Part shown: one piece after another, positions 7,296 through 62,447 of the stretch | Numbering within the stretch: the first letter of the stretch is position 1 | Layout: each line of letters opens with the position of its first letter | Assembly (NCBI GenBank): GCA_022496805.1 | Contig: CM040086.1 | Span: 1,986,501 to 2,050,500, forward strand | Direction: 5' to 3' | Origin: Pohlia nutans | Taxonomy: Eukaryota; Streptophyta; Bryopsida; Bryales; Mniaceae | Length of the DNA stretch: 64,000 nt | Translations under genes and position numbers: made by a program | Notes under the pieces: model-generated | Told to the model about the DNA's origin: nothing | Seen by the model: the letters and a program-made list of their open reading frames with translations, nothing else | Databases searched by the model: none

Positions 7296-7537
7296 ACAAC
7301 TCTAATTTTTAAACCACTTGCCTGAAACCGCACCCAAAATCTCTTTTAAATTCCATTTTAAGCGTGATTCTATTTTAAATTTGCTTTGGGTCTATTCTAA
7401 AGAAGTGTAGATCTCTCTAAAATACTTAGTTTAGCATTTTAAAAACCCCATTTGGTGCAATGGAGTAGAAGTTATGAGCAAGATTCTTCAAAAATAAAAC
7501 CAAGCCCGTGGGGCTGGCATTGTCGTTTAAGGGTTAA
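7296..7537 (+). mobile_element. piggyBac-like MITE, family A (degenerate left end)
   Basis: It is homologous over its length to 31086-31327 and 48325-48567 ('cacccaaaatctctttta', 'ttctattctaaa', 'agaagttatgagca'). The right end is intact: a palindrome with arms CAAGCCC/GGGCT(T)G, then GTCGTTTAAGGG and TTAA at 7534-7537. The left TTAACCC end is eroded, so the start is approximate. Assignment to a piggyBac-like type rests on the TTAA and GGG terminus shared with the intact copies. There is no coding capacity. Confidence 0.7.
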
Positions 7538-7584
7538 AGGATCAAATGTGTTATGTTTAAGGGTTAAAGGATCAAATGTGTTCT
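7525..7584 (+). repeat. 30-bp tandem duplication spanning a MITE end
   Basis: Two 30-bp units, each starting GTTTAAGGGTTAAAGG, follow directly on one another and differ only in the last bases. The unit contains the last 13 bp of the family A element plus flanking DNA, so the duplication spans the element/host junction. Comparable duplications occur at 23779-23914 and 60309-60362. Confidence 0.85.
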
Positions 7585-10500
7585 GTTCCTAAAACTCACG
7601 AAAACTACTATTTATAATGCATTGAGCCAAATAATATTTAAACATGTATTTCTCATATTTAATTGTTTGATCTTGTACAAAAATAGTATGTAAACATGGG
7701 GAAACATTTCAACAACTTTGAGCGTATAGATTGTGAGATATTAGTGTTTGAAGGAATTTTAAAATAAATAAAATTAAATCATGCCAAAATAGGTCAACAT
7801 GCTTTGAATCCTCTTAACTTAATATTTTGTACCACAGGACATAAGTACTTAATTCTTTATGTTAAAGAATCAAATTGCGAATCAAAGTACATTTTATTTT
7901 TTTAAATCAAGTTGATTTTCATTCTTTGAATTTCTTTTTTATATAAAAGTAGGTACAAGAGGAAAGGAAAAACTAAATCATATGTAGTTCTACCATGGAG
8001 TTGAAACATATCAATCTTGATAGTAAGAATGTTGCAACATACAATCTAAACCTTATGTACTTTTCTTTGCAAGTTCTTTTGAAATTTGAGTTTAAGCACA
8101 AATCACATTTATGTAAAAGTTGTAAAATATTAAAAACAATAAATAAATCTACGTTGATTTCTACAAGTTTGTAAAATTTGAAATCAGAATAATAAGTGAA
8201 TTAAAAAAGTCAGTGATTTTTTATAAAGTCATAATTATTTAATCCATGATATTTTAGTTTTTTTAGCAAAATGCACTAAGAAAAATGATGTCTAAATAAT
8301 GATTAAGCCTTAAAAATACTTCATATATACAATTATAAAATCATAACCAAAATTACCATTATACAGTTTGTGTTTTTTTGTGTGTATTTTTTATTAATTA
8401 AACATTTGTGGAAAAGAAATTTGAACATAGTTTATGGCATGTTATATTTAGTATCATCGAGTGGAATTTTGATATATTTTATTATTTTATAATGCCCCTT
8501 GGTAGATTTATCTCGAGGGGGTGAGTATCGGAATTTTAGAAGACCACATGAGATAAAAAAAAAATAGGGTCAATTTAATTTGTTTAGGGTAAAATTTATA
8601 ACTTTGTTAAATCTACCATAGCACTAGAAATGATTTATACAAGGTGGTGGATAATTCCTTCATTTTAGTAATAAGTAGGAAAAAATATATATCTATCTAT
8701 CTATCTTCTATGTATCTATTTAGGAAAAAATAGGGTCATAAACATAGGATCTCTTAAAAAGTGTGTAGTAGGATCAGTAGAATAATTATGGGTTTGGCTA
8801 CTTGAATGAAGAAGTTTGTAGTTTTGGTCCAAATTTGAATCACGCACGTTGGTATCGAAGGAAATGACGTGGGATCTTTTTGGAGGAAAGAATGTGTTGG
8901 CACTCCTCTATGGCCGTTGAGTTTTGAAACGGCACTGAACATGTGGGAACTTGTTGAATGCTTAGAACCTAACAACCTCCACCGTCACCCTCAACCACTT
9001 CCTGCGATCGGTTTTGGTTTTCTCACAACCTCACTACTTCACTCCTCAATTGCCAAGCTCACATTTTTTTTGAGCATTTTCTAGGTTTTCTTTTATGTAG
9101 ATTGATGTTGCAGAGTGGCCTCTTCTTTTGCAATGTTTTCCGCATGTATTTGGTTTAGGGTTTAGCTTTCATGGTTTGTCCCTTCTTTGTTGGTTTTGTG
9201 ATTAATAATTTGCTCAAGTTTAGGTAGAGCAATTTCAAGGTAAGGCTTGCTTAGAATTTGGATAAGCATAGACGGTTAGGTGAAGCATGGAGTTTGGTTT
9301 CGCAATGCTATAGTATTCCATTCACTATTTGGTACTTGTACGATTTATAAAAAGAATATTGTGCCAAAAATTAGCTTCTTTAAACAATTACAAATAAATA
9401 TAGGGTGCTAAAAAACCACTGAGAGGTGCATAAATATCCCCTCAGTAAATACCTCATTATCGCACGCGATTACAGAATGTAAGGGGGTGTGATCGCCTTG
9501 AAGATTTTATATCATTTTATAATCTCAATCATTTTAAGATTGAAATCAAAGAGCATATATTTCTTTTTAAGTTTATAGTTTTGGTGGTTGGAGAGTGTTA
9601 CTAAAAGGAATTTTCAAAATTAAAAAATTTACTAATAAAAAAATTTGCACCATATTCCATTTTATTTTAAACTAACATATACATATCTTTTGTGTTCTTT
9701 AAAATATTTTTGAAATTATTACCATTTCATTATGATAGTCACGACTATTATGACCATTATTCAAATCCACTAATTTAATGAGAATATTAAGTTGTTACTT
9801 TTTTATTTTATTCTACACATGTTCACAACATCATTTTGTTGGAATATCATTTTTTTGAATGTTCAATCACTCTACTATGTGACGAAAACGTCTCATAATA
9901 TTTCTTTCCATTATGCAGATGCAACAAATGTTTCTTAGCGCTTTAATTTGCAAAATATTAGGCATCAAGATTGCAAAGTCGTTTTCAACATAGATATTGA
10001 ACACATGGAGGGCGTGTCATTTCAACACCAATAGATGAAACGGTATTTGGTTACCAAAGAATAATGCCAGTATATGGTATTCAAGGCCCATATCAAATAC
10101 TATTCCTTGATGACCAAATATAACTTTTTCTACTATTTTTAGTCCAAAATGAAGATGTTGCAATTCTAACAAATTAGTTAGCGGAATCGTAATGTAATCA
10201 CCTTGAGTTGGATCATGTCATAATGAACATACAAGGATGCTTCATAAATTTGGACAAATCACATGAATACTCATATTAGACAGAGAATGTATTCAAGCCA
10301 AGTTCGAAAAACCTTCCATCTCATTCTGACAATAATTTCCAACTTTGTATTTTTGAGAAATTCCATATACATTTACGTCATTGAAATGAATAATTCAAAA
10401 ATGCTCACAATTTTTTTTATAATGAGAATTAGTTTGGAAACTAAATCTTATCTTACTAATTCTTATATCTTGAAAAGAGAACATTGTACAACATGCAAAT

Positions 10501-10929
10501 ATCTTCTTTAATATCAGGAAACCCAAAACTCGTATTTTTGCTAATGAGCACAATTACTATCATCAAATTCTTGTTGACAATCAACCTTTAAACATCAAAA
10601 AATCCTACTGGTTTGTTTTGAGAATGATAAAAAAAAATTTAAAAATTTAAAAAAAATCTCAACCAAAATTGAAATGCATCGGCGCTTTGGAAAGGTGATG
10701 AAAAAGCAAGGCTAATTTGAGCAAATACGCATGTTTTAATAAATTGTACATTCCAAAAAAATTGAAAAGAGAATTGGTGAAGAGGGAGGAGAGGGAGTCT
10801 CCAAGAGATCACTAGCATGTATTTAGTGTAACTATGTGCGTTAAGAGGGTATTTCAATGGGGGCTCTCACATAAATTCAATATTTGAGGTATGTTATAAA
10901 TAGACTCTTGAATTGTTTCTTACTTGAAT
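7585..10929. other. AT-rich intergenic DNA
   Basis: No gene supported. A short (TATC)n tract at about 8691-8706 resembles the tail of the SINE-like repeat but lacks its body. Small reading frames on both strands at 8754-9084 overlap each other and have no recognisable domain. Confidence 0.55.
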
Positions 10930-11269
10930 TTAACCCCTAAACGTCCCAACGTTCAAAAATTGAATCACAAACAGATTTAGGGCCTTGCAACTTTATCATA
11001 CAATTTTGGATGACTTTCATCCAAGTCACCTTTGTAAGACTATTAAATTCTCTACCAATTACAAAAGTTCTCTTGTGATGAGGAGTTGTTGATAATATTA
11101 AGGAGGCCTCCAACTGCAAGTATGTCAAATTTGTTGGGTAGATTTTATGCTTACAATGGTCCTTTCATGTACATCTCATGTACATTTGAGCCATGCTAAT
11201 ATCTATCTTTGAGACTAGCATGCTAATAGCTATCTTTGAGCCATGCTAATATCTATGTTTAAGGGTTAA
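10930..11269 (+). mobile_element. piggyBac-like MITE, family B
   Basis: Bounded by TTAA at 10930-10933 and 11266-11269. The left end reads TTAACCCCTAAACGTCCCAA; the right end is GTTTAAGGGTTAA. The interior matches 59173-59473 in reverse complement ('ggaggcctc', 'tctaccaatt', 'ttaatattatc'). Near the right end a roughly 30-bp motif ('gccatgctaatatctat') is repeated about three times. Non-coding and about 340 bp. Confidence 0.8.
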
Positions 11270-11670: not shown

Positions 11671-11903
11671 TTAACCCCTAAACGTCTGAATATGCCGTAG
11701 CGGCCAGTAGAATACGGTGTATTTTGTTTGTATTTGGAATAAATCCACACTTTTAATGGGTTTGAGTTCATAAGAGAAGTTGAAATTTAAATCAATGCGG
11801 TTCTAATGAGCTCTTAAGATCCCATTTTAAAGTTTCTTGTTGGTAGAAAATCTCAATTATACAACAACGTATATACTATCCCCATGGGACGTTTAAGGGT
11901 TAA
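11671..11903 (+). mobile_element. piggyBac-like MITE, family A2
   Basis: TTAA at 11671-11674 and 11900-11903. The ends TTAACCCCTAAACGTC and GACGTTTAAGGGTTAA are complementary apart from one base. Next to the right end is the perfect palindrome CCCATGGG; near the left end is GCCG-tag-CGGC. A second copy at 58954-59176 shares the interior ('ttgtatttggaat', 'atactatccccatggg'). Only 53 bp beyond it, GACGTTTAAAGGTTAA (11944-11959) looks like another right end whose partner I could not identify. Confidence 0.85.
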
Positions 11904-12560: not shown

Positions 12561-12591
12561 ATTGTTTGAACTACTTCGAAGGAATACCATA

Positions 12592-19171: not shown

Positions 19172-19232
19172 GGCTGCGGACTCCGGACGCGCTCTCTCAC
19201 TCCTTTGGAAACGGCGCAGCTTCTTCTCCGGG

Positions 19233-19236
<4 letters not shown>

Positions 19237-19291
<55 letters not shown>
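19237..19291 (+). repeat. (CT)n microsatellite, about 27 units
   Basis: An uninterrupted CT run. On the minus strand it lies upstream of the proposed ATG of the decayed ORF and is translated as an Arg-Glu repeat in one frame. In plants CT/GA tracts are common in 5' UTRs, so it may sit in the leader of the element's transcript. Confidence 0.95.
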
Positions 19292-19293
<2 letters not shown>

Positions 19294-19930
19294 GCAAACC
19301 ACGCGCTTCTTTCTCCGGACGCTTCCCCTTCCGCTTCCGTGGTGCGCGCCTGACCTCCCGGAGTCCTCGCACCTCTCTTCCCGGCTGCGCACTCACTCCC
19401 TTCCGTAAACCTCGCCGGAAATGGCGGCGCTCACTGTCCGGGTGCTCGCCTCTACCCAATTCTTACCTCGCGCTACTGTTTCTCCGCCGGCGCTAAATTT
19501 CTCTTACTCCCGGGCGCTCAAAATTCTCACAAGTCGGTCGCTCACTGCTTTCTATCTCCGGGTGCAAAATGGAAATCCTAGCGCTCTTCGGAATTGTGAA
19601 AAATGGTGCGCGCGGAGGGCTGGAGGAACCGGGGAGGAATGAATAGTGAGCCGCCCAATTTAAGGCGGCCCAATTCAAATCCCGGATCGTGGCCGGGACC
19701 GGCAGAGGTCCGTCCTCCGACATCCAGTGCCCCATCCGGTCTCCTGTCTGGTCCGCCGCCATTCCCAGGTTCCGTAGCGAACACTTAAGGTGCGCGTGAG
19801 AGCACCACTCTCTCCAAATAAATAAAGAGGCCATAATGAACGCTATTTCTCCCATTTATGGCGGTTGGGCTATCCCTTACTGCCCTACCAACCCTAACTG
19901 CCCATTTTAGAATAAACGAGGTTCGACACT

Positions 19931-23227: not shown

Positions 23228-23810
23228 TTTCCTCCTAAATGCCTATAGCTCTCTGCAGATTTGGAGAATGTCAAAGATGCATTTTAAAATGCAACTAAGA
23301 GGGGTATTTTGAATTTAATGTATGAATTGAATTTGTACATTGTGAATTTTGGATTCTATCCATATGGTTAAATCTATGATTGCAATCACCTATATTTTTG
23401 TATAAATTTTGAATTTTGAAATTCAAAATTCTTTTGTTAGTAATTACATGAAAAATAAGATATTGACAATTTGTGGATGTGATGGGTGGAAAAGTAATAC
23501 TCAAAGTGTAGTGATTTTTGGAGTTTTTTTGATTGCTTGATTTTATGAGTTGATTTTTTCAAGAGCACTTTTGATTTTTTTTGAACTAAGATCTTAAAAA
23601 AAATTGGTGGAAAACAATATCATGAAATGAAGCCGCATAAATTTTTCACAAACCATCCCCTTTCTAATTGGATCACACCTACATGAAACTACAGTGCTAC
23701 AAAATTCTGTAGTATTTTTTTTACTTGCAAGAAGTGTATGATCGATAAGAAAACAAATGTCAATTCTGTACATCAAGCCATAAACGTATGGTTAGGCAAT
23801 TAAGGGTTAA
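23228..23810 (-). mobile_element. piggyBac-like MITE, family C (reverse, one eroded end)
   Basis: Reverse-complement homologue of 50094-50670 and 59749-60324. Shared blocks include 'gattgcaatca', 'aaccatcccctttctaat' and 'ctgtacatcaagc'. The end at 23795-23810 reads GGCAATTAAGGGTTAA and is the family's TTAACCC terminus. The opposite end near 23228 retains CTCCTAAATGCC but has lost its TTAACC. This terminus is tandemly duplicated with its flank (next entry). Confidence 0.75.
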
Positions 23811-23914
23811 GATGTGGCTCTTGGGTATAAATCTATCTACTTTGACCATAAATGTATGGTTAGGCAATTAAGGGTTAAGATGTGGCTCTTGGGTATAAAT
23901 CTATCTACTTTGAC
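23779..23914 (+). repeat. 68-bp tandem duplication spanning a MITE end
   Basis: Units 23779-23846 and 23847-23914 are nearly identical (acg/atg difference near the start). Each contains the terminal 32 bp of the family C element through TTAA and then 36 bp of flank, so the duplication crosses the insertion junction. Confidence 0.95.
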
Positions 23915-24044
23915 AATCAACGGATTTGTGAAAGTGGAGGTTCTAAGTTCAAATCTCCATGCTCACAAAAAGAAATTATGAATCATGATTCATTTGCATG
24001 GAGATTGTGAGCATCATTCCAACTCCAATGATCACAATGATTTA

Positions 24045-25384: not shown

Positions 25385-25580
25385 ACACCTAGCCCATGGA
25401 AATGTTAACGGTCATCATAATTGCCTCCATTTGATTGCACATGTTAGCTAATTGGGATTTCAACCCCCCACCAAGTCCTAATTTCTTCCATGCCATCCCA
25501 TACGATACAAATATGCAAAAAATAATCACCCACACTCCAACATCCAAAATCCGACCAGCCATACCTTCGAGAAAGCATTC
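25385..25580 (+). repeat. Partial R1 copy (start only)
   Basis: Matches the first part of R1 ('tcataattgcctccatttga', 'ccaagtcctaatttcttcca', 'cacccacactcc') and then gives way to the 92-bp tandem array. Confidence 0.65.
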
Positions 25581-25950
25581 AAAAATAAAGCGCCAAGGAA
25601 ATGATTTGTTTGAAAAAAAGCGCCAATTGATTGAGTCACTAATGTCGCTAATTGAGCCTCGACAAAGCAGTCAAAAATAAGGCGCCAAAGAAATGATTTG
25701 TTTGAAAAAAAGCGCTAATTAATTGAGTCACTAATGTCACTAATTGAGCCTCGACAAAGCAGTAAAAAATAAAGCACCAAGGAAATGATTTGTTTGAAAA
25801 AAGTGCCAATTAATTGAGTCACTAATGTCAATAATTGAGCCTCGACAAAGCAATAAAAAATAAAGCGCCAAGGAAATGATTTGTTTGAAAAAAAGAGCCA
25901 ATTAATTGAATCACTAATGTCACTAATTGAGTTAACTAACTTTTGTTAAG
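25581..25950 (+). repeat. 92-bp tandem array, four units
   Basis: Units start at about 25581, 25673, 25765 and 25857 with 'aaaaataaagcgccaa'. Each contains 'aaatgatttgtttgaaa', 'attgagtcactaatgtc' and 'gagcctcgacaaag'. Units differ by a few substitutions. The block sits at the junction between the partial and the full second R1 copy and shares phrases with R1, so it is probably an amplified piece of R1. Confidence 0.85.
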
Positions 25951-31085: not shown

Positions 31086-31327
31086 TTAACCCTTAAACAA
31101 CATGGCTTTCTTGGTTCTCGCACCCAAAATCTCTTTTAAACTTCATTTTAAGCACCATTCTCTTTTTAATTTACTTTGGTTCTATTCTAAAAAAAGTATA
31201 GATGCCTTAGACATATTCATTTTGGCATTTAAAAAACCACATTTGGTTCAAATTATAAAAGTTATGAGCAGGATTCTCCCAAAACAAAAGTAAGCCCGTG
31301 GGGCTTAGTATGTCTTTTAAAGGTTAA
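31086..31327 (+). mobile_element. piggyBac-like MITE, family A
   Basis: TTAA at 31086-31089 and 31324-31327. The ends are TTAACCCTTAAACAACATGG and GTCTTTTAAAGGTTAA, with the subterminal palindrome AAGCCC-gtg-GGGCTT just inside the right end. It is homologous over its full length to 48325-48567. Its right TTAA is also the left TTAA of the next element. Confidence 0.85.
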
Positions 31328-31887
31328 CCCTAAAGAACCTCACCTGTTTTGTAAAAGTCAAAGCCTTACAATTTGCGTACATGAAATATCACATTGTGTA
31401 ATTTATAAATTTTCATAAATATTCATCAACATTATGGAGGTATGACAAAAATTTCAACATAATTAAAAGATATTTAAAATAATTACAAATCTTGACAGTT
31501 AAGAATCCAAGATAAATTTATATGTGAAAAATTAATATTAAAAATAATATTTAAGTTATGTTTACAAGTAGTTAAAAAATGAAAGTGAATAAATTAAAAC
31601 AAATGCATGATTGGAGCATCTTTAGAAAGCCTTTGGTATTTTGGACACTCAAATTTTAGATTTCTCAATAATGTAAATTCTTTCAATGAAGTCAATTCTC
31701 CAATAACAACTATTCAAAGTTGTATTATGACTCAATTTAAACATCTAATGAAAACATCAACTTCAACAAAATTAAAACACTTGAATTTTTGGGTTGGTTT
31801 TTGGCCAAAGGAGTTAAAGTATTGATACTTTTGGATAAAAGTAAAATTTCATTTTTGATACTCTTGGGATGGTCTTTTAGGGGTTAA
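31324..31887 (+). mobile_element. piggyBac-like MITE, family H
   Basis: It begins TTAACCCTAAAGAACC at the TTAA shared with the preceding element. It ends GGTCTTTTAGGGGTTAA at 31884-31887. The two ends are imperfect inverted repeats over about 17 bp. No other copy was recognised in the window. The small reading frame at 31607-31825 lies inside and has no known domain. Confidence 0.55.
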
Positions 31888-34300: not shown

Positions 34301-34538
34301 TTAAGGGTTAAGGATCAAGGATTTGCAGTTTTAAAATGGCACATTCAATTAATCATATTGAGGAAAATCAGTAATTTATACAAGACTAAATATTACATCA
34401 CCAGAACTAGTGAAAATCATTGTTCAAAAAACAAATAAATTTAAACAAGAGGAATCTAAATAATTCCTACTAAAATTTATAAAAAAAACATAAAAAAACA
34501 TAAGATCAGATTTGGGCTTCTTGATCTTTTAGGGTTAA
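34301..34538 (-). mobile_element. piggyBac-like MITE, family F2 (reverse)
   Basis: Reverse-complement homologue of 61391-61613. The right side 'tttgggcttcttgatctttt' then AGGGTTAA corresponds to that element's TTAACCCCTCAAGGACCAAG end. The left side, 'ggatcaagga' then 'ttttaaaatgg', matches its other end. TTAA sits at 34301-34304 and 34535-34538. Both ends are partly eroded. Confidence 0.6.
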
Positions 34539-36884: not shown

Positions 36885-37397
36885 TTAACCCCCAACTACC
36901 CAGGTGTTCATTTTTTGAACGATGTACAGATTTCACCCAATTTTTTAATCCGTCATCCAATTTTTGTAGTATGGATTTTTTTTATAGATTTTATAGGAAG
37001 TTTAGCTTTGCGCATGTGTTATCTGATTAGAAAAGGGATGATTTGTGAAGTTTTTATACCTCGTTTCATGTTGCATTAGAGTTAACCAAAAAGAGTGTCT
37101 CAAAATGGAAAGAAACCTTAAACTCACCATAGACTTGTTTTGAGTTCCAAAAAACTGCAAACCTAATTTATGGTGAGTTGGAGAATAATCTAAAGAAAGA
37201 CTTTGCACTAATAAAGGTGTGGAAGTCGTGACCTCCCCAATGCTAGCAGAGAGTTCCCACATGTTCCCTCAAGCCAAATTTCATAATGTACATTTTTTAT
37301 TCATTCATCAAGTTTAAAATGTCCCTCTTTGCTACATTTTATAAGCCATCTTTGAAATTCTCCAAATCCAGAGAGGTGAGGACGTTTAGGGGCTTAA
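36885..37397 (+). mobile_element. piggyBac-like MITE, family C, internally replaced
   Basis: Left end TTAACCCCCAACTACCC followed by GTTCA-ttttt-TGAAC, a small subterminal hairpin also seen at 59749. Right end GACGTTTAGGGGC then TTAA (37394-37397). The first 190 bp and last 110 bp align with the other C copies. The middle, from 'tagagttaaccaaaaagag' (about 37077) to about 37290, is replaced by sequence whose start resembles the end of the AGAGTTAACC element at 62881. Confidence 0.7.
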
Positions 37398-37725: not shown

Positions 37726-38260
37726 TTTACCCTTTGACTCGCCAATGCTCATATTTCGAACGTTGGATGATTTTTGATGCGTTCCTTCACCACATATAGT
37801 GATGTTTTTCATTCATTTAAATTTCTCTTGGTTTTTGTGCTAGTTGAGTATCATTTGTACGGTATGGATCTTCAAAATAAGATATTATGATTTTTTTTTA
37901 AATAACAAAAAGCGGTTTATCGTTCTTAGTTTAAAAAATGTGATCTTAATAATGATTTTCCAAAATAAATAGAACTAAATAATGAAAATTATACCATCTC
38001 ATAGTGCATGTTATTCCAAATTCATTACAAAAAAAAATAGTTAAAAATTGCTAACTTGGGATTTTTAATCGAATTTCAAAAGAAAATTTTATAAAATTAA
38101 TTAAATAATATTAATAAAAAATTATGATAAATCCAACCGTACAAATTTGATTTACACATTAAGATTTGTATATATATTTTTTGCCCATCAACTCCATTTT
38201 TGTGATTCATCAAGCATTTTATACCACATCTTTGAAATTATTTGGACGCCAAAGAGTTAA
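37726..38260 (-). mobile_element. piggyBac-like MITE, family D (reverse)
   Basis: Read on the minus strand it follows the family D order: 'ccaaataatttcaaagatg', 'aaaatgga', 'gatgaa', 'gtacaaatg', 'aacgcatcaaaaatcatcca' and a terminal palindrome relic. The TTAA at 38257-38260 is intact; the other side reads TTTACCC. It shares its TTAA with the next element. Confidence 0.7.
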
Positions 38261-38805
38261 CCCCTAAGTGACAGATCAACCATTTTATGGTCTCTGCCCT
38301 TTTTTTATGAGCTGCCCGAAATAGAAAAAATATTTTTATAGAAAATAAAAAATATTTTTAAATAGGCAATCAAGTCTACTTTCCAACCCAATTTGAATCA
38401 TGTCAATCCGAATTAAACTCCACCCGGGAGAAATTTTCAAAGAAAAACACTTCTACATTGTCTAGTGTTAGAAAACTTACTATTTGGGGAAAGTAATGAT
38501 GTTCTCTCCGTTAAAAAATTTGCAATTTTAGATTTTAGAATAGAATGTCTAGTTTTAACAAATCATACAAAATTTCAAATTCTAAAAATAAAATTTGTGA
38601 TTCTTATAAATATTTGAAGTTAAATGCTTCTAAATTCATTATGAGATGATAAAAAGCTATTTTTTGATATTTGACCGTATGGAAAATTACTAAACATCAA
38701 GCTCCTCATTTTCTCTTTTGGACCAAACTTCATCAAAGTTGAAGAAGTAATTTTTTATAACACATTTATGTTTTGCCATTACCCCCTCCGTCATTTAGGG
38801 GTTAA
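38257..38805 (+). mobile_element. piggyBac-like MITE, family E
   Basis: TTAACCCCTAAGTGACAG (left) and CCGTCATTTAGGGGTTAA (right) are complementary over about 17 bp with two mismatches. TTAA occupies 38257-38260 and 38802-38805. The interior has no second copy that I recognised. No coding capacity. Confidence 0.75.
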
Positions 38806-39630: not shown

Positions 39631-40090
39631 AGGGTAACCGTTTGGATGATGTACAGATTCATCCACATTTTCTCATCCGTCATGCGTTTTTTGCAAGGAA
39701 AAACAACAAAATCCTATGGCAAGATAGCTTCATGCATGCGTGATCTGATTAGAAAGAGGATGAAGTGCATGAAAATTTTTATGTTAGAGTGATTCACAAG
39801 AACTTTTTAAGATTTTAGTCTAAATGTGCTCTTAAAAAAATCATCTCACAAAATTGAGCAACCAAAAAATTTCAAAAATCCACTACACTTAGAGTATTAC
39901 ATTTTAACCCATCACAACAAATTTCATTTATAAATAGTCAATATTTTATGTGTAATGTATTTACAAAATATTTTTGAATTTCAAGTTTTAAATTTTATAC
40001 AAAAATATTTGTGATAGTAATCGCATATCTAATCATATGGATAAAATCTAAAATTTATAATGTAGAACTATTATTCAAACATGAAGTTCA
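39631..40090 (+). mobile_element. piggyBac-like MITE, family C relic
   Basis: It aligns with the left and middle parts of 50094-50670 through 'gatgtacagattcatcc', 'tttctcatccgtcatgc', 'tgcgtgatctgattagaaag' and 'atggataaaatctaaaattt'. The left end is degenerate (GGGTAACCG without TTAACCC) and the right end is missing. Confidence 0.6.
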
Positions 40091-43300
<3,210 letters not shown>

Positions 43301-45034: not shown

Positions 45035-47920
45035 TTACTTGGCAGAAGCTCGTTCAGATGCTCGGAGCAGTAACGAAGCATACAATTGCTCGTTCCATAT
45101 ATCAGGCACGCCAGGAAGGCACCAATGTGCGCAGTCGAGGCGAGGACCGCCACGACTGTAATTGAAGATGTGGCCATCAGGGCGAAAGGACGACAGCTTT
45201 GTGATGTTGAGTAGAGTGGCTCGCACATGCAAAGAGTCCCATACATTGTCCAGCACGCCGGATTGCATGTACTCCCCCAGAGGCTGCAGATGGGTTTCAT
45301 TCGTGATGGGGAAGGTGCTGTTCAGGCAAGACTTCCTGTACCAGTGGCTGGGTTCAAAGCTCCGGAAAAAGACGTGGGAAACATCAGGGTTGAGTTGCTC
45401 GTTCACCCAGGCTGCCCACGTTGCTACGGCTATACTGTAGGCTTCCTCCATCTTCATGCCCAGGCGAATGCTAGACCCCACCTGGAAGTAGCAACCCCTG
45501 CCAGCACAGCACCCTGCTTGGTTAGTGAGGAAAAAACATAAGCCTTAAATATACCAAGGATACATGGTTATAAAACGACCAATATTGTGAAAATAAGAAC
45601 CAAAATTGAATCAATTTTTTTGTAAAGAATCAAATTGAAAAGGTGTTGATAACATATCAAGTACACTAAATGGGCTATTTAGTGTCCGGGACACTATTTT
45701 CTCACATCGCCTCGAAGGAATATGGCACTCTCGATAAAAGTGGGAATGACAAGTGACAAACTCCTATGTAGTGTAGGCACACTACTTCTCCTCACCTTTG
45801 AATGAATTGTGGTAAAAGACATCAATTCTCCCCGGACACTAAATAGCCCATTTAGTGTAGTGAAAATACAATCCAAATCATATCACTAAAATCAATGAAG
45901 AAAATTGCATGTACTAGATAAAATTGGGCCTAAAAAAACAGTCCCCCAAACTGCTAAAAAAACATGAAGCGCTTCTTGGTCCTTTAGGAAACGATGTTTG
46001 CGAGATAAAGCCTCTCTTCCTGTTCAGGATCAGGAAACAGCAGCACTTAAAACCTAACGTTAACGAGAATATTTTGAAACAAGGTAGTAAGGGGTAGAAA
46101 CTTACGAACGGTAGGTTTTGGTAGTAGTCCACCAATGGCCAGTGTTGAAGACGAGAACATCGGCCCCCTGCCATTGACTACTGGCTGACTCCAGCTTGTC
46201 CAGTTTCAGTGTGGCCATGACTCGTTTTGGTGAATGTCTGGGAGGACGACCCAGTCGAACAAGCCAAGGCGACCTGTAATATTCCACCGTCACATTGTAG
46301 CCCGGAAACCGTACTGCTAGATACGGAGCTGTTTTCGTGATAACCCTGCCATTGGTTTCCTTCACCAGAGTCTTATCCGGCACTCCAGCCATTAAAAGAC
46401 ATATAATAGACTCCCACTGGGTCCTGCCCATTGAGTCTCCAATGAACGCAAGCCGCTTATTCTTCAACCTCGTGAGCATGTCCCGAGCATTGAATCTGAT
46501 CAACAACAGAACCCGAACTCCTTCATAAGTACTTTCCTTTCCCCAGTAAAGAAGACTAAGACTACATTCAACGCTTTACCAAATCACTAGGGTTAATATC
46601 ATAAGATAGAGGATACCAGAACCTGATCCCGTCTCCTACACTCCCTCCTATTACCAACAGCAACTCATCTCTTCCAATACACTTGGATGGCCTTCAATTC
46701 ACAAGTGGTGTAAACATGACTTGGCTAAATGTCTATGACCACTCATCTTTGAATGGAAATAGAGTTTTCTCTGTCACTTACAGTGGTTTACAACCTCCCA
46801 CTTCAAGAAATTCAGAGTGATGAATCACACTCCTGCATGTGTTAAAATACTTTAACCCCTAAGCGTCTAAAACGCCATCTGCATCATTGAACTTTGTGGC
46901 ATTTTCTCATTTTACCTCGATTTTCTAATTGCAACAGAGTTAACCGAAAACAGAACAAGTGTTCTAACCCGCAAAATTTCAGGAAGTCAGATTGCATGCC
47001 CTCTTTTAGTGTAGCCGAAATCAAAGCTCCAAGGGAAGAAGATACCCTCTATCTTCAATTTTAGACACGAGCTCCAAGTTGTCAACTAATCAATGCAGTC
47101 ACCTAATTATATCTCAAGTGGATGTGGGCCATCCCCTCCAAGCCTTGGCTCTCTTTGAACTCACCTTCATCTCAGTTTTGCCTACTTTATGACGGCAAAA
47201 CTAGTTCACACTCCTTTCTATTTTGGATTCTTTGGAAACCATGCCAGTTTCCTTGGCTGCCTTAGATACGGGTCAAACTCACCTCACCTAACATGTATTT
47301 TCTCTTCTTTTCGGTTAACTCTTCTACATCATTTTAAAGCACTTGTTCTATACTATAACATCAACAGTGACGATCATGTCAAACTGAAGTCATTTTCACA
47401 CAAACAGATGCTTTCCAGCAGGGGCTCCAATTTTTCTACACTACAGCAAATACACAGTGGACGCTTAGGGGTTAAAGTAACGGAAAGAGTATCAACGTGA
47501 ACAACACAATTAGCTATTGCTTATTAGAAAGGCTGACCTGGGCATGTTACAATCACGGGGCTGCCAGCGCCAGTTCCGGTACTGCAGATCGGCCCTTCCA
47601 TTCTCAGCGCAACGGAACCCTTGCTCAGCAAACGAGCAATTGGTATACAAAGGGTACGTTTCATCGTACACCCAGCTTCCAGTGAACAGGTCACATCCGG
47701 GGGTTAACCCCCCATTCATCGTGTTAGTCCCGGCTAAGCGTCCAAAGGCGTGCAAAGGGAAGGTGGAGTCCAAGGCGAGCAGCGAAAGAATGACGACTAC
47801 TGTGAGGAAGATGAGAAACGTGCTCTTGGGGCGAGCAGCTATGGTCATCAGTCGCTGCAGCTTCTTCGCTTCCCCCGGGGTCCGCCATCGCGGACTTCGA
47901 GCAACAGCAATTCGACCCAT
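45035..47920 (-). CDS. Trichome birefringence-like (TBL/PMR5-type) polysaccharide O-acetyltransferase
   Basis: Three coding exons: 47538-47920, 46106-46495 and 45035-45497, giving 411 residues. Donors are AG|GTCAGC and TC|GTAAGT; acceptors are GATCAG|A and GGCAG|G. The protein has a signal-anchor membrane segment (about residues 33-50) and a PMR5N domain (about 75-127; CDLFTGSWV...NWRWQPRDCNMPRF across the first junction). Exon 2 carries the Gly-Asp-Ser motif (FIGDSMGRTQWES, Ser149), and the C-terminus has DCAHWCLPGVPDIWN, whose Asp379 and His382 complete the catalytic triad of the family. TBL proteins are Golgi type-II membrane proteins that acetylate xylan, mannan or pectin; the substrate here cannot be read from sequence. 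Length is normal and no break is seen. Each intron carries a MITE. Confidence 0.93.
45664..45857. mobile_element. TA-flanked MITE in TBL intron 2, 194 bp
   Basis: Perfect terminal inverted repeats of about 27 bp starting CACTAAATGGGCTATTTAGT, with TA on both sides (45662-45663 and 45858-45859). This fits a Tc1/mariner-type MITE. It occupies about a third of the 608-bp intron 45498-46105 and leaves both splice sites untouched. Confidence 0.8.
46852..47475. mobile_element. piggyBac-like MITE, family E2, in TBL intron 1
   Basis: TTAACCCCTAAGCGTC and GACGCTTAGGGGTTAA are perfect 16-bp inverted repeats including TTAA (46852-46855 and 47472-47475). It lies wholly within intron 1 (46496-47537) and contains another element at 46936-47322. 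Reading frames inside are not exons of TBL: the exon 1/exon 2 junction is fully accounted for without them. Confidence 0.88.
46936..47322. mobile_element. AGAGTTAACC-ended element nested in the intronic MITE
   Basis: Ends AGAGTTAACCGAAAA and TTTTCGGTTAACTCT are perfect inverted repeats. The right 140 bp (about 47185-47322) is the reverse complement of the left part of the insertion at 62881-63350 ('catgccagtttccttggctg', 'gacggcaaaactagttcaca'). A target duplication was not recognisable here. Whether it arrived after the outer element is inferred only from nesting. Confidence 0.65.
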
Positions 47921-48324: not shown

Positions 48325-48567
48325 TTAACCCTGAAAGGACATATGCTTTCCCGATTCCACACCCAAAATCTCTTTTAAACTCCATTTTACGCATGATTCT
48401 ATTTCTAATTTACTTTGGTTCTATTCTAAAGAAGTATAGATCCCTCAAAGGTGCCCGGTTTGGCATTAAAAAACACCTCATTTGGTGCAACAGAGTAGAA
48501 GTTATGAGCAAGATTCTCCCAAAATACTATCAAACCCGTGGGGCTTGCATTGTCCTTTAAGGGTTAA
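48325..48567 (+). mobile_element. piggyBac-like MITE, family A, in probable TBL leader intron
   Basis: TTAA at 48325-48328 and 48564-48567; left TTAACCCTGAAAGGACA, right GTCCTTTAAGGGTTAA. The inner palindrome near the right end is AACCC-gtg-GGGCTT, one position degraded from the family form. It is homologous to 31086-31327 and 7296-7537 along the whole length. Confidence 0.85.
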
Positions 48568-48656
48568 ACCAATGAGAATTTTCACATGCTAAGATTCCAT
48601 TCATGGAAAGTACCCTCTCGTGCAAGGCTTTTAAGGTCAGAATAAACATAGTCTAA

Positions 48657-50093: not shown

Positions 50094-50670
50094 TTAACCC
50101 CTAACCGCCCAACCATGCATATCTTGCTTGATGTACAGATTTCATCCGTAGTTTCTCATCCGTCATGCACTTTTTGTAGTGTGATTTTTTTACTAAATTT
50201 TTTATGGAAAGTTAGTTTCATGTATGTGTGATCCGATTGAAAAGGAAACAATTTCTGAAAAAGTTATGCCTCATTTTGTATTGCAGTGTTTCACCCAAAA
50301 TATTGAAGATATTAGTCTAAAAGTGTTCTTGAAAAAATAAACTCATAAAATCAAGCATCCAAAAAATCTCCAAAAATCACTGCACCTAGAGTACTATATT
50401 ATAACCCATCACAACAAATTTCATCGACAAACTGTCAATATCTTATTCGTAATCAAATTTCAAAATAAATTTTTATTTAATGTTTCGAAATTTTTAGAAA
50501 CAAATTAATGATAGCAATTATAGATCTAACCGTATAGATAGAATCTAAAATTCAAAATGTATAACTTGTATTCATACATCAAGTTCCAGATATTCATGTT
50601 AGTTGCATTTTATAATGCATCTTTGCAAAACTGCCCAAACTGGATATAGGTGAGGACGTTTAGGGGTTAA
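50094..50670 (+). mobile_element. piggyBac-like MITE, family C (best-preserved copy)
   Basis: TTAACCCCTAACCGCCC on the left and GGACGTTTAGGGGTTAA on the right, TTAA at 50094-50097 and 50667-50670, 577 bp. Homologues are at 23228-23810 (reverse), 36885-37397, 39631-40090 and 59749-60324. There is no coding capacity. Confidence 0.85.
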
Positions 50671-56652: not shown

Positions 56653-56915
56653 TGTGTGGGGGGAAGGGATGACCCTGAGGGGCAAAGGGATTGGGGGTTT
56701 TTTTTTTATGGTCATTTTTTTAATGGAAAGTTCGTTGAATGTGTTTGTATCGGAAATTACCCTCTTTGAGATATCATTATTACTAATGTATTAGCTTGAT
56801 ATTTTTTTGATCTTGCTTGCTTGTTCTGTATTAACCCTTTAACGTCCCAATTCAACACTGTTTTCAAAGATTCGTTATAAAATAGATGATGAAAAACGGA
56901 AATGGAGTTGATGTA

Positions 56916-58491
56916 CAGTGGGGTCCAACATGGAATGGCGTTTTTGGTTTCGCAGTGAGTAAAGTTTTAGTACTGCCAACTTTGAAAGCCTCCCGAGAGC
57001 TCAAAAATTGGTATCTTACCACGAAATTTTTACCAGAGACTCATCTTTAAGTTAATTATATGTATGCCAAATTTCAAGGCCAAAAGATTCACCCAAAAAA
57101 AGTTATTCAGAATCTACCAACATTGGTAGCTGTGGAAATTTTTTCACTGCTGCCAACTTTGACAGCCTCCCGAGAATGGAATTTTTTTTTCCTTACTTTG
57201 GTTTTTTTTTGGTAGAAACCAATTTGTGTTAGTAATATATGGTAAAAATATAAATTCTAAAAGATTAGTAAAAAAAAAGATATTAACAATCTACCAACAT
57301 GTGTAGTTGTGGGATACAATGGGGAAACCATTTCATTCCTACCAACTTTGAATACTGCCAACTTTGAAAGCCTCTCGAGAGCTCAAAAATTGGTATTTTA
57401 CCACGAAAGTTTTACCAAAGAAATATCTTTAAGTGAATTATATGTATGCCAAATTTCAAGGCCAAAAGATTCACCAAAAAAAAGTTATTCATAATCTACC
57501 AACATAGTAGTCAAAGTTGGTAGCAATGAAATGGTTTCCCCCATTGTTTCCCACAACTACACATGTTGGTAGATTGTTAATATCTTTTTTTTTACTAATC
57601 TTTTAGACTTTATATTTTTACCATATATTACTAACACAAATTGGTTTCTACCAAAAAAAAACCAAAGTAAGGAAAAAAAATTTCCATTCTCGGGAGGCTG
57701 TCAAAGTTGGCAGCAGTGAAAAAATTTCCACAGCTACCAATGTTGGTAGATTCTGAATAACTTTTTTTGGGTGAATCTTTTGGCCTTGAAATTTGGCATA
57801 CATATAATTAACTTAACCCTTTAACGTCCCGATTCAACATTGTTTTCAAAGATTTGTTATAAAATGGTGGATGAAAAACGAAAATGGAGTTGATGTACAA
57901 AACAAAGTTGTAAATGTCAATGTGTAGATAACATCTGTACGGTTGGATTCATCATATTTATTATTAATATTCTTAAAGTAATTTTGCAAGGTTTTCTCTT
58001 GAAATTCAATTAAAAATCCAAAATTAACACAAAAAAATTTAAAAATATTGTAATGAAATTAGAATGACATGCACTACGAGATGGTATGGTTTTCATTATT
58101 TGATTCTACTTACTATGGAAAATCATATTTAAGGTCTTTCTTTTTGAACTAAGATTGAAACTTGACATTAATCACTTTTGTAAATTTTCAAAAATTCACA
58201 TTATCTTATTTGGAAGATCCATACCGTACAAATGGTATTCAACTAGCACAAGAATGATAAAAAAGAAAAATGGATGAAAAACATCCGGTACCTACAGAAA
58301 TCGAGCTGCTGAAATTCATCCGGCGTCCAGATTCTGGACGCCGGCGCGCTAAAGGGTTAAAGATGAGTCTCTGGTAAAACTTTCGTGGTAAGATACCAAT
58401 CTTTGAGCTCTCGGGAGGCTTTCAAAGTTGGCAGTACTAAAACTTTACTCACTGCGAAACCAAAAACGTCATTCCATGTTGGACCCCACTG
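56916..58491. mobile_element. Long-hairpin TA-type transposon (CAGTGGGGTCC ends)
   Basis: Termini CAGTGGGGTCCAACATGG and the reverse complement, each next to TA (56914-56915 and 58492-58493). The uninterrupted site in the inner family D copy (about 57893-57902, gatgtacaaaac) has a single TA, so TA was duplicated. This is Tc1/mariner/pogo-like behaviour. The arms pair for about 430 bp (56916-57345 with 57500-57812 and 58361-58491). The loop holds a third copy of part of the arm (57347-57495 versus 56971-57122). The right arm is split by the inner family D element. No transposase. Confidence 0.85.
57813..58360 (+). mobile_element. piggyBac-like MITE, family D, inner copy with preserved empty site
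   Basis: TTAA at 57813-57816 and 58357-58360; ends TTAACCCTTTAACGTCCC and CGCGCTAAAGGGTTAA. The flanks aattaac and agatgag are contiguous across one TTAA in the complementary arm of the host hairpin (57047-57050 on the plus strand), so insertion duplicated exactly TTAA. Just inside the right end is a perfect palindrome with 11-bp arms CCGGCGTCCAG and CTGGACGCCGG. Non-coding, 548 bp. Confidence 0.95.
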
Positions 58492-58953
58492 TACAAAGCA
58501 AAGTTGTAAATGTTAATGTGAAAATAACATCTGTACGATTGGATTCATCATATTTATTATTAACATTTTTTAAACTAATTTTGCAAGGTTTTCTCTTGAA
58601 ATTCAATTTAAAATCCAGAATTAACACAAAAAATTTGAAAAATATTGTAATGAAATTGGAATAACATGCACTACAAGATGGTATGGTTTCCATTAGTTGA
58701 TTCTACTTATTATGGAAAATCATGTTTAAGGTTTCACTTTTTGAACTGAGATTGAAACTTGACATAAACCACTTTTGTAATTTTTCAAAAATTCACATTA
58801 TCTTATTTTGAAAATCCATACTGTACAAATGGTAGTCAACTAGCACAAGAATCAATATAATATTGAATGAATGAAAAACATCACCTTATGTGGTGAAGGA
58901 ACGCGTCAAGAATCATCCAGCGTCCAGCATATGGACGCTGGCGTGTCAAAAGG

Positions 58954-59176
58954 TTAACTCCTAAATCTCTAAACGTGTCGTCGCAACCAGTAGTATACAA
59001 TGTATTTTGGTTGTATTTGGAATGGATCCACATCCTTAACGAGTTTGAGTTCAAAAGGGAAGCCGAAATTTAAATCAACGCGGTTTTAGAAAAGCTACTA
59101 AGATCTCAATCCAGAGTTTCTCATTGGTAATAAATCTCAATTGTACGACAACATGTATACTATCCCCATGGGTTAA
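58954..59176 (+). mobile_element. piggyBac-like MITE, family A2, copy 2
   Basis: Homologous to 11671-11903 through the whole interior. Left end TTAACTCCTAAATCTCTAAA is altered, and the right end CCCATGGGTTAA lacks the GACGTTTAA found in the other copy. It shares TTAA with both neighbours. Confidence 0.7.
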
Positions 59177-59473
59177 CCCCTAAACAAAAGTGGATGCTAG
59201 TCTCAAAAATAGATATTAGCATGGCTCTGGTGTACATAAGGTGTATATGAGAGGACCATAGCAAGCATAAAATCTACCCCAACAAATTTGACATACTTGT
59301 AGTTGGAGGCCTCTCTAATATTAACAACTCCCCTTTATATTGTAATTGGTAGAGAATTTAATAGGCTTCAAAGGGGACTTGAATGAAAGCCATATGAGGT
59401 TGTACAAGAAATTTGCAAGGCTTTGAATATGTTTATGATTCAGTTTTTGGACGTTGGGACATTTAGGGGTTTA
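59173..59473 (-). mobile_element. piggyBac-like MITE, family B, copy 2
   Basis: Reverse complement of 10930-11269. Left TTAACCCCTAAAC; right GGGACATTTAGGGG followed by TTTA where TTAA is expected. Confidence 0.75.
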
Positions 59474-59476
59474 CTC

Positions 59477-59752
59477 TTAACCCTTTAACTCCTAAACTCC
59501 CAAACAACCAAAATTTGATCATTTCCATTCTTTCAGCATTCACAAATTTTCATCCATGTGGTTTTTTTCATCATTTTTTTTTTCTAAGATTAGTTAAAAA
59601 TCTTCGTAGTGGGCTAGTGGAACTAGAAACTGATCGAATAATTGTTTTTATGATTCTTTATAGCTTATGAAAGCCAAAAACTTCAATACTATGGAGTGTA
59701 TTCAAAAACATTTAACTCAATTTTGTTTAGACTACCAGACATTCGGAGTTAA
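59477..59752 (+). mobile_element. piggyBac-like element, family F (degenerate)
   Basis: It starts TTAACCCTTTAACTCC and ends at the TTAA shared with the following family C element, preceded by CGGAG where GGG would be expected. No other copy in the window. Boundaries are plausible and not proven. Confidence 0.45.
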
Positions 59753-60324
59753 CCCCTAACTGCCTAAGCGTTCATTTTTTGAACAATGTACAAATTTCAT
59801 CTATAATTTCTCATTTGTCAAGCACTTTTGGTATTGTGGAATTTTTACTGTAGATTCTATGGGAAGTTAGCTTCATGCGCATATGATCTGATTAGAAAGG
59901 GGATGATTTGTGAAACTTTTATGCCTCATTTCATGTTGTAGTGATTCATCCAAAATTTTGAAGATTTCAGTGTAAAAGTGCTCTAAAAAAAGTCAAATCA
60001 TAAAATTAAGCAACCAACAAATCTTCAAAAATCACTACATTCAGAGTATTAAATTTCAACCAATCACAAAAAATCCATTCATAGATTGTCAATATCTAAT
60101 TTGTAATTGAATTACAAATTAATTTTGAATCTCATGTTTCAAATTTTATACAAAATTATTAGTAATAGCAATCATAGATTTAACCGTATAGACAAAATCT
60201 AAAATTTATAATTTACAACTTTTATTCATATATCAAGTTCAAAATATCCCTCTAGGTTGCATTTTATAATGCATTTTTGAAAAAATGCCGAATTTGAAAA
60301 GGGCTCTAGACATTTAGGGATTAA
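59749..60324 (+). mobile_element. piggyBac-like MITE, family C, last in the chain
   Basis: Left TTAACCCCTAACTGCC followed by GTTCA-tttt-TGAAC hairpin; right GACATTTAGGGA then TTAA (60321-60324). Homologous to 50094-50670 throughout. The right terminus is amplified three times (next entry). Confidence 0.8.
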
Positions 60325-60362
60325 TGGACATTTAGGGATTAATGGACATTTAGGGATTAATG
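60309..60362 (+). repeat. 18-bp triplication of a MITE end
   Basis: GACATTTAGGGATTAATG occurs three times without change. It consists of the last bases of the family C element, its TTAA and two flanking bases. Confidence 0.95.
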
Positions 60363-61390
60363 GACAGAGGAAGCGTCTCCAACAACCTCATAAGGCTTGT
60401 TGAGGTTAGAGTATTAAACTATAGATTGACAAAATTCTTTTCGTTTCTTCTTCTTTACAAGGCCCATCCAATGATGTGTGTACTGTGATTCAATTTTTAA
60501 AAACTCTCTATGAATGTCGAGGATTAAAGGTGAGAGAGAATCTTTGAGAAATTTTGATGAGCAAGCCATAATATTTGCTTGCTCCATTTTGTTGGCCCGT
60601 ATTTGGCCAACTAAAACTAGTGCATCAATTACCATTTTAAAATATAAAACTTGGCCTTATGCCACTTTTTCTATAGAGAATATTCCACATGTTGACCACC
60701 AAGGCACTGAAAGTGTCATTAATACGTAAAGGACCAAGGATCTATGGTTTCAAAATATAAATTCAATTGATCCTATTGTGAAAAATATAATAAAAGTTCA
60801 AATCCACAACCAAGGTGACAAGTGTTTTTTTATACATGTGTATGCAATAATTGTCCAATGCATATTTGCATCTTTATGGTGCTATCATCTTCAGACACAT
60901 ATGTTTAAAAAAAGGCACATTAGGTTATAATTTTACGAGAAAATAATAAAATTCATAGATAAGCCATGTGATTGTTACAAGTTTTCAAAGTGGAAGTTGC
61001 CTAAACCACTTAAACATCCCATAGACTTGTCTGAAAATTAAGAAAAAGAATATTTCATAAACATATTTCAAAGCAAATTTACAATGCAAGGAAGGAATTG
61101 AGTATTCTTACCTTTAGGCTATTCACTCATGAGTTAAAACTCATAATCAGAGTTGTTCTTTTGAACTGCTACATCAACAAAGAAAGTGAAAGTGAACGAT
61201 TTAAATTAAAAAAGGCACATAAGGTTATGTCCCATAACGGTTTGGGACTGCCGTGCCTCACCAATTATGTAGTATATTATTTTGAGTTGCTATTACTACA
61301 AAATATTCTACCTCGAAAGAACTACTTCCAATTGTGTTGGTTTGCTTTAAAATAGATAGGTTTTAGTTGTTACTACAAAAATATTCTAAC
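60363..61390. other. AT-rich intergenic DNA
   Basis: Overlapping small frames on both strands at 60414-60729 have no recognisable domain and no splice or start context. Nothing else seen. Confidence 0.45.
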
Positions 61391-61613
61391 TTAACCCCTC
61401 AAGGACCAAGAAGCCCAAATTGGGCCTCATGTTGTTTTTAGCATTTTTTAGTAGATTATAATGAAGTTCCCTTTGTTCATATTTATTCACATGGATTCCC
61501 GCGTGCAACGTCCTTCTATGTTTTCTATGATATAAAATTTGGTCTCGTTTGAATTATAATTTTATCAATACAATCAATTTTAAAACCATGAATCTTGGTC
61601 CTCTAGGAGTTAA
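61391..61613 (+). mobile_element. piggyBac-like MITE, family F2
   Basis: TTAACCCCTCAAGGACCAAG (left) and CTTGGTCCTCTAGGAGTTAA (right) pair over 20 bp with a few mismatches, TTAA at 61391-61394 and 61610-61613. A subterminal palindrome GCCCAA-a-TTGGGC lies near the left end. A reverse copy is at 34301-34538. Confidence 0.75.
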
Positions 61614-62049
61614 CTTCTAAACATTGGGCCTATAACCATAGAATCTCGCTTAATCTGTCACACTCAATTTTGCCACTCTAAATAAGATAAGCATTCAATT
61701 TTATAATTTTAGTAGATGAAGCCATGAGTCCATTACAAATCATGATTTTTTCATTAAATTTGGTGAAAATTTGAAATTATCATGATTTTTTGAAGTGATT
61801 GTAAAGAAAATTCATATCAATCATAGAATGTACTAAAAAATTCCATTTTTTTAACCCAAGGTGTGAATTACAATGAAGAACATAACAAAAAATGAAAATC
61901 ATCTGCTTATCTAAATTAAGATATTTTTTTTGGCTACACCATGGTAACACCCACCGAGCTTGTAACTCCAATAAAGCACTTAATTTTCAGAGTTTCTCAA
62001 AAATTCAAAGTGAAGTAGAAATTAGATTTGGTAAGCCTCATTTTGTTAG
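61614..62049. other. AT-rich intergenic DNA
   Basis: Nothing recognised. Confidence 0.45.
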
Positions 62050-62447
62050 TTAACCCTTAAACGTCAAGAGGGCCTGAACGGGGCAGCCCGGGAAGAATCT
62101 AATTTTTTTTGCAAATAAAAATAAAAATAAAAATAAAAATAAAAAAATAAAAAATAAAAAATTGCAAAAACGGCTCCGCAGTGCACTGCTGGCTAGCACT
62201 GTAGCACTGCGGCACTGCTGAACTTTAGCTGTCCCAACCTCAAAACTTGTTCAATTTGATAACTTTGATTGCTTACCAAGGATTCTACAATCTCTCAAAT
62301 GAGGCGAACATTTGGAATCTAGATTGCTTTTTCAGTAGCTTTCCAACGCAACAAGTCTCGCTTGATTTGGTTGAGTAAAACTACTTTTTTCTCCAATTAT
62401 TCCTTTACACCAAGCCCGTGGGGCTTGCTTTGACGTTTAAGGGTTAA
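62050..62447 (+). mobile_element. piggyBac-like MITE, family I (perfect ends)
   Basis: TTAACCCTTAAACGTCAA and TTGACGTTTAAGGGTTAA are perfect inverted repeats. TTAA lies at 62050-62053 and 62444-62447. The right subterminal palindrome CAAGCCC-gtg-GGGCTTG is the same as in family A although the interior is unrelated. The interior holds an AAAAAT microsatellite (about 62110-62160) and a GC-rich segment full of 'gcactg'. Probably among the youngest elements here. Confidence 0.9.

Follow-up and report, generated by a model that had tools for sequence, protein, structure and literature searches.

Non-autonomous piggyBac-type elements and candidate autonomous partners in the moss Pohlia nutans

A 64,000-base window of the Pohlia nutans assembly (C2:1986501-2050500, out of 697,796,988 bases) carries many short non-coding elements with differing interiors and one kind of end, TTAA followed by CCC. 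To which transposon class do these elements belong, and what moves them? A first-pass annotation had described them as piggyBac-like miniature inverted-repeat transposable elements (MITEs) in a land plant, and the host is indeed one, a moss. piggyBac is a class of jumping genes known mainly from animals and, therefore, a large load of it in a land plant was unexpected. We are highly confident that the elements are non-autonomous members of the piggyBac superfamily in a moss and that the genome holds several transposase lineages side by side, each with MITE families of its own.

The motif TTAACCCYTAAACGTC matched the window 42 times at three or fewer mismatches, compared to a mean of 1.45 and a largest count of 5 in 100 shuffles. 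A partner 100-900 bp away, in the arrangement TTAACCC[CT]...[AG]GGGTTAA, was found for 11 of 19 left ends, and 30 Markov-1 simulations gave a mean of 0.13 such pairs and never more than 1. The inventory came to 22 elements of 223-624 bp as drawn, with the interrupted element K left out, which agrees with the 20 or more non-coding elements of about 220-620 bp originally claimed; two open frames longer than 100 aa, in elements A and H, had no Pfam match. Similarity gave about 11 interior families, K included, instead of about nine. The families were unlike inside and conserved at their termini, as had been seen before, and a library of 23 sequences derived from the window covered 9,874 of its 64,000 bases (15.4%), close to the one sixth first estimated. 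Exact TTAA stood on both sides of 16 of the 22 elements, two had TTTA on one side (37726-38260 and 59173-59473) and four had an eroded or lost end (7296-7537, 23234-23810, 39640-40120 and 58490-58957). The observation as a whole was confirmed, with two corrections: position 7296 is not an intact end (ACAACTC), and TTAA does not always precede the core.

The terminal core shared by the MITEs was CCCYTAAACGTC. TTAA stood before the 12-base core in 23 of 34 window cases at up to two mismatches and in 12 of 15 at up to one. Local alignment of the first with the last 60 bases of elements gave scores of only 6-18 for the listed pairs and, thus, the inverted repetition hardly extends past the terminal 12-16 bp. 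Copies within one family differ by roughly 10-40%, which suggests that most insertions are old.

The same ends are abundant throughout the genome. One variant of the 16-base end, the one with CCCC, had 14,155 exact copies in the assembly (7,114 forward and 7,041 reverse), compared to 0 for the reversed control. In 13 blind stretches, the window library covered 10,300 of 130,000 bases (7.9%, bootstrap 4.0-12.4%); seven further stretches had been picked for exact ends and were left out of this estimate. If the 13 stretches, which are few, are representative, this coverage amounts to several tens of megabases. In the 200-kb sample, nine of the window sequences (A, C, D, E, G, I, J, K and L) had full-length copies, and none was found there for B, F or H.

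No transposase was found in the window, where 12 of 68 open frames were scanned and only TBL and SURNod19 domains were matched. Elsewhere in the genome, a profile search with PF13843, the piggyBac transposase domain, returned 1,305 first-look candidates. All 116 that were scored lay above the cut-off and covered at least model positions 5-347, with a best score of 281.7 bits, and by hand count the match was stop-free in 78 of them. These transposases sit on many chromosome-scale scaffolds, and PF13843 was detected in 0 of 14 control genomes. Nine loci, mostly from the top of the list, were then examined; all were selected for PF13843 and, thus, do not amount to a blind sample with respect to other classes. 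The first 5.5-kb stretches around the transposases had no TTAA-flanked inverted pair because the ends lay outside, and longer stretches gave pairs. TTAA-CC[C/T] ends were found on both sides of eight of the nine loci, which made elements of 4.7-9.1 kb as follows.

T1x, 8,004 bp
T6, 5,507 bp
T7, 4,736 bp
T9x, 5,968 bp
T13, 5,555 bp
T14, 5,035 bp
T15, 5,540 bp
T17x, 9,103 bp

The sequence TTAACCCCTAAACGTC is present at both ends of T17x, and another variant, TTAACCCTTAAACGTC, at the left end of T7. The ninth locus, T18, has lost its left end motif and keeps one intact end. PF13843 was present in open frames of all nine loci, some of which reach about 1,000 aa, and Cys pairs are visible in the transposase tails. 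The T1x protein (555 aa) scored 262 bits against PF13843 and matched the piggyBac transposase of PDB 6x67 over residues 71-495 (phmmer E 8.8e-28) with the catalytic Asp aligned. Three catalytic Asp were found in the open frames of the copies checked, T18 excepted. The search that the first-pass annotation had proposed thus gave many PF13843 transposases carried by elements with TTAA-CCC ends. No other transposase class was found inside such ends, though all nine loci had been chosen for PF13843.

The element boundaries were examined by aligning the loci to one another. T13 and T15 are 90% identical over 5,576 columns, from the TTAA at one end to the other TTAA plus one base, where the similarity stops. 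For T6 and T18, the alignment begins seven bases inside the left end and runs to one base past the right TTAA, and the alignments of T17x with T1x and of T17x with T9x start exactly at the left TTAA. At the level of sequence, inter-locus alignment confirms the element boundaries and counts for more than the pairing of ends. It also bears on whether the MITEs belong to another superfamily that inserts at TTAA, Kolobok or similar, with the nearby piggyBac genes a coincidence. Kolobok too duplicates TTAA (PMC9587614), and the density of ends would put some of them near any gene by chance. Kolobok has 5'-RR...YY-3' termini and another transposase in the same source, whereas the termini here are CCC...GGG, and the transposase-bearing T13 and T15 remain similar across the whole element. 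We therefore rejected Kolobok membership on the termini and regard this explanation as very improbable.

Are the transposases part of the moss genome? Pfam scans of the window found two genes on the minus strand: a TBL gene, with PMR5N and PC-esterase domains, near 45.0-48.0 kb, and a SURNod19 gene near 53.6-55.8 kb. The best named relative of the SURNod19 exon was from the moss Ceratodon purpureus (67%). The window is plant nuclear DNA, in which scans for Rfam families and tRNAs gave no matches. Among the transposase homologues, none of the best 120 of 300 and 120 of 247 matches carried a plant name, the few that were named were animals and most were metagenome proteins. Animal contamination or misassembly could be proposed from those animal names, and we consider its probability close to negligible, since MITE H lies between TBL exons in a window with moss genes and the junctions and transposases occur on many chromosome-scale scaffolds. 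In a tree of the nine moss domains and 32 database rows, moreover, the moss sequences formed several well separated groups, all in one 100/100 clade from which the seven named animal rows were absent. On this tree, five changes of the moss label are required and, therefore, environmental sequences are interleaved among the moss transposases.

Next, the ends of the MITEs were aligned to those of the autonomous elements. The matches relied on start at base 1 of both, and some weaker ones do not. D matched T17x, T1x and T9x (110 bp at 76%, E 8e-20), and its two unlike ends matched the two unlike ends of T1x, subterminal TGATGTACAGA included. A and J matched T7 (E 7e-8 and 2e-6), I matched T15 and T13 (E 6e-8), and B matched T9x and T17x weakly. 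By these alignments, at least three autonomous lineages each have subterminal DNA in common with their own MITE families. The first-pass annotation had supposed that one transposase mobilizes many unrelated passengers. A single lineage moving all the families would explain why the 12-16 bp core is common to the families and autonomous lineages examined. That proposal is unlikely in our judgment, because the subterminal matches pair D with T17/T1/T9, A and J with T7, and I with T15/T13, and because the nine transposases form several groups that lie well apart from one another. Cross-mobilization of the C, E, F, G and H families is possible. The elements in the window are listed below, with T numbers for the transposase loci and L numbers for other stretches of the assembly.

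7296..7537, plus strand: MITE A; left end eroded (ACAACTC), right terminus TTAACCCTTAAACGAC (reverse complement); 84% to 48346-48568; right end similar to the left end of autonomous T7, 42 bp at 83%
10930..11269, plus: MITE B, 340 bp, TTAA both sides; 82% to 59194-59471
11671..11903, plus: MITE C, 233 bp, TTAA both sides; kin of 34078-34311 and 58954-59172
23234..23810, minus: MITE D; one end eroded, the other end plus flank in a 68-bp tandem duplication (23778-23922); 71% to 50094-50664
31086..31327, plus: MITE A, 242 bp; adjoins F, with one TTAA common to both; the A+F pair (31086-31887) has an empty site in L007, 70/89 identical
31324..31887, plus: MITE F, 564 bp; adjoins A at the common TTAA
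34078..34311, minus: MITE C, 234 bp, TTAA both sides
34308..34538, minus: relative of MITE I (label L); adjoins C at a common TTAA; right end TTAACCCTAAAAGATC; 65% to 61391-61579
36885..37397, plus: variant of MITE D, 513 bp; 62% overall to 50094-50670, right end near D
37726..38260, minus: MITE E, 535 bp; TTTA left, TTAA right; adjoins G at a common TTAA; 73% to 57813-58361
38257..38805, plus: MITE G, 549 bp, TTAA both sides; L001, L007 and L013 carry full-length copies
39640..40120, plus: MITE D, both ends eroded; 74% to 59778-60315
46852..47475, plus: MITE H, 624 bp, TTAA both sides; between two TBL gene exons
48325..48567, plus: MITE A, 243 bp, TTAA both sides
50094..50670, plus: MITE D, 577 bp, TTAA both sides; of the window elements, the nearest to the autonomous T1/T9/T17 ends; 5' end similar to the left end of T17x (110 bp at 76%, E 8e-20), 3' end identical to the right end of T1x (22 bp at 100%)
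56831..56917, plus: first 87 bp of a MITE E; remainder at 58490-58957, split by a 1.57-kb terminal inverted repeat (TIR) element at 56918-58489
57813..58360, plus: MITE E, 548 bp; empty site inside the window at 56947-57150
58490..58957, plus: right part of the split MITE E; adjoins C at a common TTAA; 86% to 57894-58360
58954..59176, plus: MITE C, 223 bp; between E and B, with one TTAA in common with each
59173..59473, minus: MITE B, 301 bp; TTAA in common with C, TTTA on the other side
59749..60324, plus: MITE D, 576 bp; right terminus present three times (18-bp unit, 60309-60366)
61391..61613, plus: MITE I, 223 bp, TTAA both sides; adjoins K; 5' end similar to the left end of autonomous T15, 36 bp at 89%
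61610..62053, plus: left part of element K, which resumes after 62447; interrupted by J; own window termini not of the CCC type; K minus J is 78% to L004 and 76% to L011
62050..62447, plus: MITE J, 398 bp, with TTAA on either side, inside K; L011 and L004 carry the site unoccupied; left and right ends each match autonomous T7

The target site was examined with 75 candidate elements, which came from the window and also from 20 sampled stretches and six loci with transposases; their flanks were joined with one TTAA and searched for unoccupied copies. This gave 38 spanning matches, several of them from mispaired ends. Eight were at least 80% identical, and seven of these had a single intact TTAA. 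TTAA was also kept in some of the more diverged empty sites (A+F compared to L007, 72%). Six filled sites chosen from the matches were set against empty ones in eight comparisons, each of which showed one TTAA and a gapless junction. The best empty site lies inside the window, where E at 57813-58360 compared to 56947-57150 gave 122 of 124 identical bases over the joined flanks, with one TTAA. In such comparisons, vacated and never-occupied sites look alike. The first-pass annotation had named a lack of TTAA duplication relative to empty sites as evidence that would speak against it; to the extent that this could be checked it was not borne out, since TTAA is present in the closest empty sites.

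Since TTAA is palindromic, empty sites alone cannot separate duplication of TA between fixed outer bases from duplication of TTAA. Could the elements be Tc1/mariner (Stowaway-like) MITEs with a TA duplication and an ACCC terminus, with TTAA as a target preference? MITEs of the TA class are known in plants, including Stowaway with its TA duplication (PMC10004981). The outer T and A should then be free flank, yet in the 13 blind stretches of 10 kb TTAA stood before 4 of 4 exact cores, 11 of 15 cores with one mismatch and 23 of the 42 cores at up to two mismatches (cores read backwards numbered 15). The transposases inside such ends carry PF13843. The conserved outer T and A and these transposases argue for TTAA rather than TA duplication; Tc1/mariner membership was rejected on the conserved outer bases, and we give the Stowaway-like explanation very little credence.

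Several features of a piggyBac-type MITE system were found. Insertion occurs at TTAA with duplication, a short TIR starting CC[C/T] is present in the MITEs and at both ends of eight of the nine transposase loci, and a DDD transposase with PF13843 lies inside elements with matching ends. The MITEs themselves are short, present in many copies and have the ends of autonomous elements, in the case of A, D, I, J and, weakly, B. The elements fit the piggyBac superfamily on every feature tested, the zinc-finger model aside.

Several observations weigh against this assignment, or against parts of it. The ends are dense (75 on the plus strand and 82 on the minus strand at four or fewer mismatches in 264 kb) and, therefore, two ends around a transposase can arise by chance, which makes pairing alone weak. 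T1x and T14 have an additional TTAA-CC end beyond the chosen one, and the boundaries of T7 and T14 come from end matching alone. T18 has Asn instead of the second catalytic Asp, and its transposase is probably dead. The zinc-finger model PF13842 was found in none of the nine moss proteins scanned, and three of them gave zinc-binding matches in the tail that were weak and below threshold. C, E, F, G and H have little beyond the core in common with any autonomous copy examined. At the target site, one of the eight closest empty sites had TTAG (the F insertion in the T14 locus compared to L007), and many diverged empty sites were without TTAA (J compared to L020, TTTA; F in L011, TTAG; F in T14 compared to I-type copies, TTCA). 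TTAA was not intact before every core, as the 23 of 42 in the blind stretches indicate. No transposition event was observed in this analysis.

For insect piggyBac, excision is hairpin-mediated at TTAA and the donor TTAA is rejoined. By this model, which is the most likely one for the moss, autonomous elements of 5-9 kb at other places in the genome would encode piggyBac-class cut-and-paste transposases that act on the MITEs, which would provide ends only and borrow the enzyme. The transposase would recognize the common terminus (about CCCYTMAACGYC) plus lineage-specific subterminal DNA and cut beside the CCC end, forming hairpins over TTAA. At the donor site the TTAA would re-anneal, and the element would enter a new TTAA, which would become duplicated. 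The sequences themselves show the ends, the target site, open coding frames and subterminal DNA held in common; we infer binding, mobilization in trans, seamless excision and any present activity.

Some elements also stand back to back. Adjoining window elements have one common TTAA at 31324, 34308, 38257, 58954, 59173 and 61610; when each side is held strictly to four mismatches, just the junctions at 38257 and 61610 remain. Exact palindromic back-to-back junctions numbered 32 genome-wide, compared to about 10-14 expected from end counts and TTAA density. In 264 kb of local sequence there were 11 at four mismatches, compared to 3.7 expected (P 0.0016), and 13 at five mismatches, compared to 7.2 (P 0.03). 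The excess within the window alone was not significant. Stacking above expectation is a lead, and uneven element density may account for part of it. A wider picture would be a living community of several piggyBac lineages, with working transposases, their own MITE families, footprint-free excision and flanking TTAAs as preferred targets, which, with the MITEs included, would occupy about a tenth of the genome and account for much of the sequence at present annotated there as other DNA transposons. We put this forward tentatively and with somewhat less than even confidence.

Other structures were seen at the element ends and loci. Tandem duplications of 30, 68 and 18 bp at window 7525-7587, 23778-23922 and 60309-60366 each lie over an element end plus flank. 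Such duplications were considered as a by-product of transposition and rejected, since there was no enrichment (7 of 113 ends compared to 66 of 1,634 other TTAAs, p = 0.32); all seven element ends spanned by tandem arrays lie in the window. In T17x (L025, C17:26323001-26328500), 40-bp repeat arrays in opposite orientation flank the transposase frame, presumably an unusual internal structure for a piggyBac element. The T18 locus (L037, C18:2302001-2312000) lies inside a palindrome, with 14-base samples perfectly matched out to 354 and 8998. The T1x and T17 loci and blind stretch L016 (8072-8291) have in common a palindromic repeat of about 222 bp, with copies 90-96% alike.

The window holds further repeats. 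The TIR element at 56918-58489 has inverted ends that are 98% alike (CAGTGGGG...), is flanked by TA or TGTACA and holds the younger E at 57813-58360; its end motif would suggest a pogo/Tigger-like element. E moved at least twice, given that the TIR element interrupting one copy holds a younger copy. Window 16999-19462, on the minus strand, is GC-rich (57%) with long overlapping open frames that look gag-like (retroelement) by eye; three frames scanned there had no Pfam match. Two long related repeats at 898-3340 and 25391-28518 are about 71% alike over their longest match and contain internal tandem units of about 62-115 bp.

How do these elements compare with those already described? Trichoplusia ni piggyBac (PDB 6x67/6x68) resembles the moss elements in its TTAA target, CCC ends (PMC10813416) and DDD transposase, and differs in host and in its length of about 2.5 kb (PMC10813416), compared to 4.7-9.1 kb in the moss. 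The nearest described parallel that we found is the CMITEs of the coral Acropora, which are non-coding, TTAA/CC[C/T]T, piggyBac-linked, in several families and in some cases in tandem arrays (PMC2872659). Those are 96-108 bp, with a conserved interior and less conserved TIRs, whereas the moss elements are 223-624 bp with the reverse pattern and far larger end counts. A review places piggyBac among seven MITE superfamilies recognized in angiosperms, assigned by TIR and target site duplication (PMC10004981) and, therefore, the label of a plant piggyBac-type MITE is not new. That account gives a classification only; the moss adds transposase elements with the same ends and subterminal DNA. A fern paper gives a class PiggyBac with 1,230 copies (PMC6890710). 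The text matches to piggyBac in a moss paper (PMC10619864) were the word "piggybacking" and were discarded. The genome paper on Pohlia puts DNA transposons at 23.68% and shows an EnSpm track; the word piggyBac is absent from its main text, and its supplementary transposon table may name it (PMC9247546). Our literature searches, with most subscription journals outside their coverage, found no report of autonomous piggyBac elements in moss and no paper on piggyBac/TTAA MITEs in land plants or TTAA MITEs in moss. Judged by the literature searched, what appears new is that a land plant has, at such scale, autonomous elements whose ends match those of its MITEs; the class itself is known.

These findings bear on the repeat annotation of the Pohlia genome. 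A 2023 plant-engineering paper states that all DNA transposons found in plants leave a footprint, and it obtains precise excision with a piggyBac from an insect (PMC10905368). The many open piggyBac transposase frames of this moss would provide native plant candidates for such a precise-excision tool, and the moss offers a test of how plants control the piggyBac class. Since several autonomous lineages here share a genome with many MITE families, the question of which part of the end decides the match between transposase and MITE becomes addressable.

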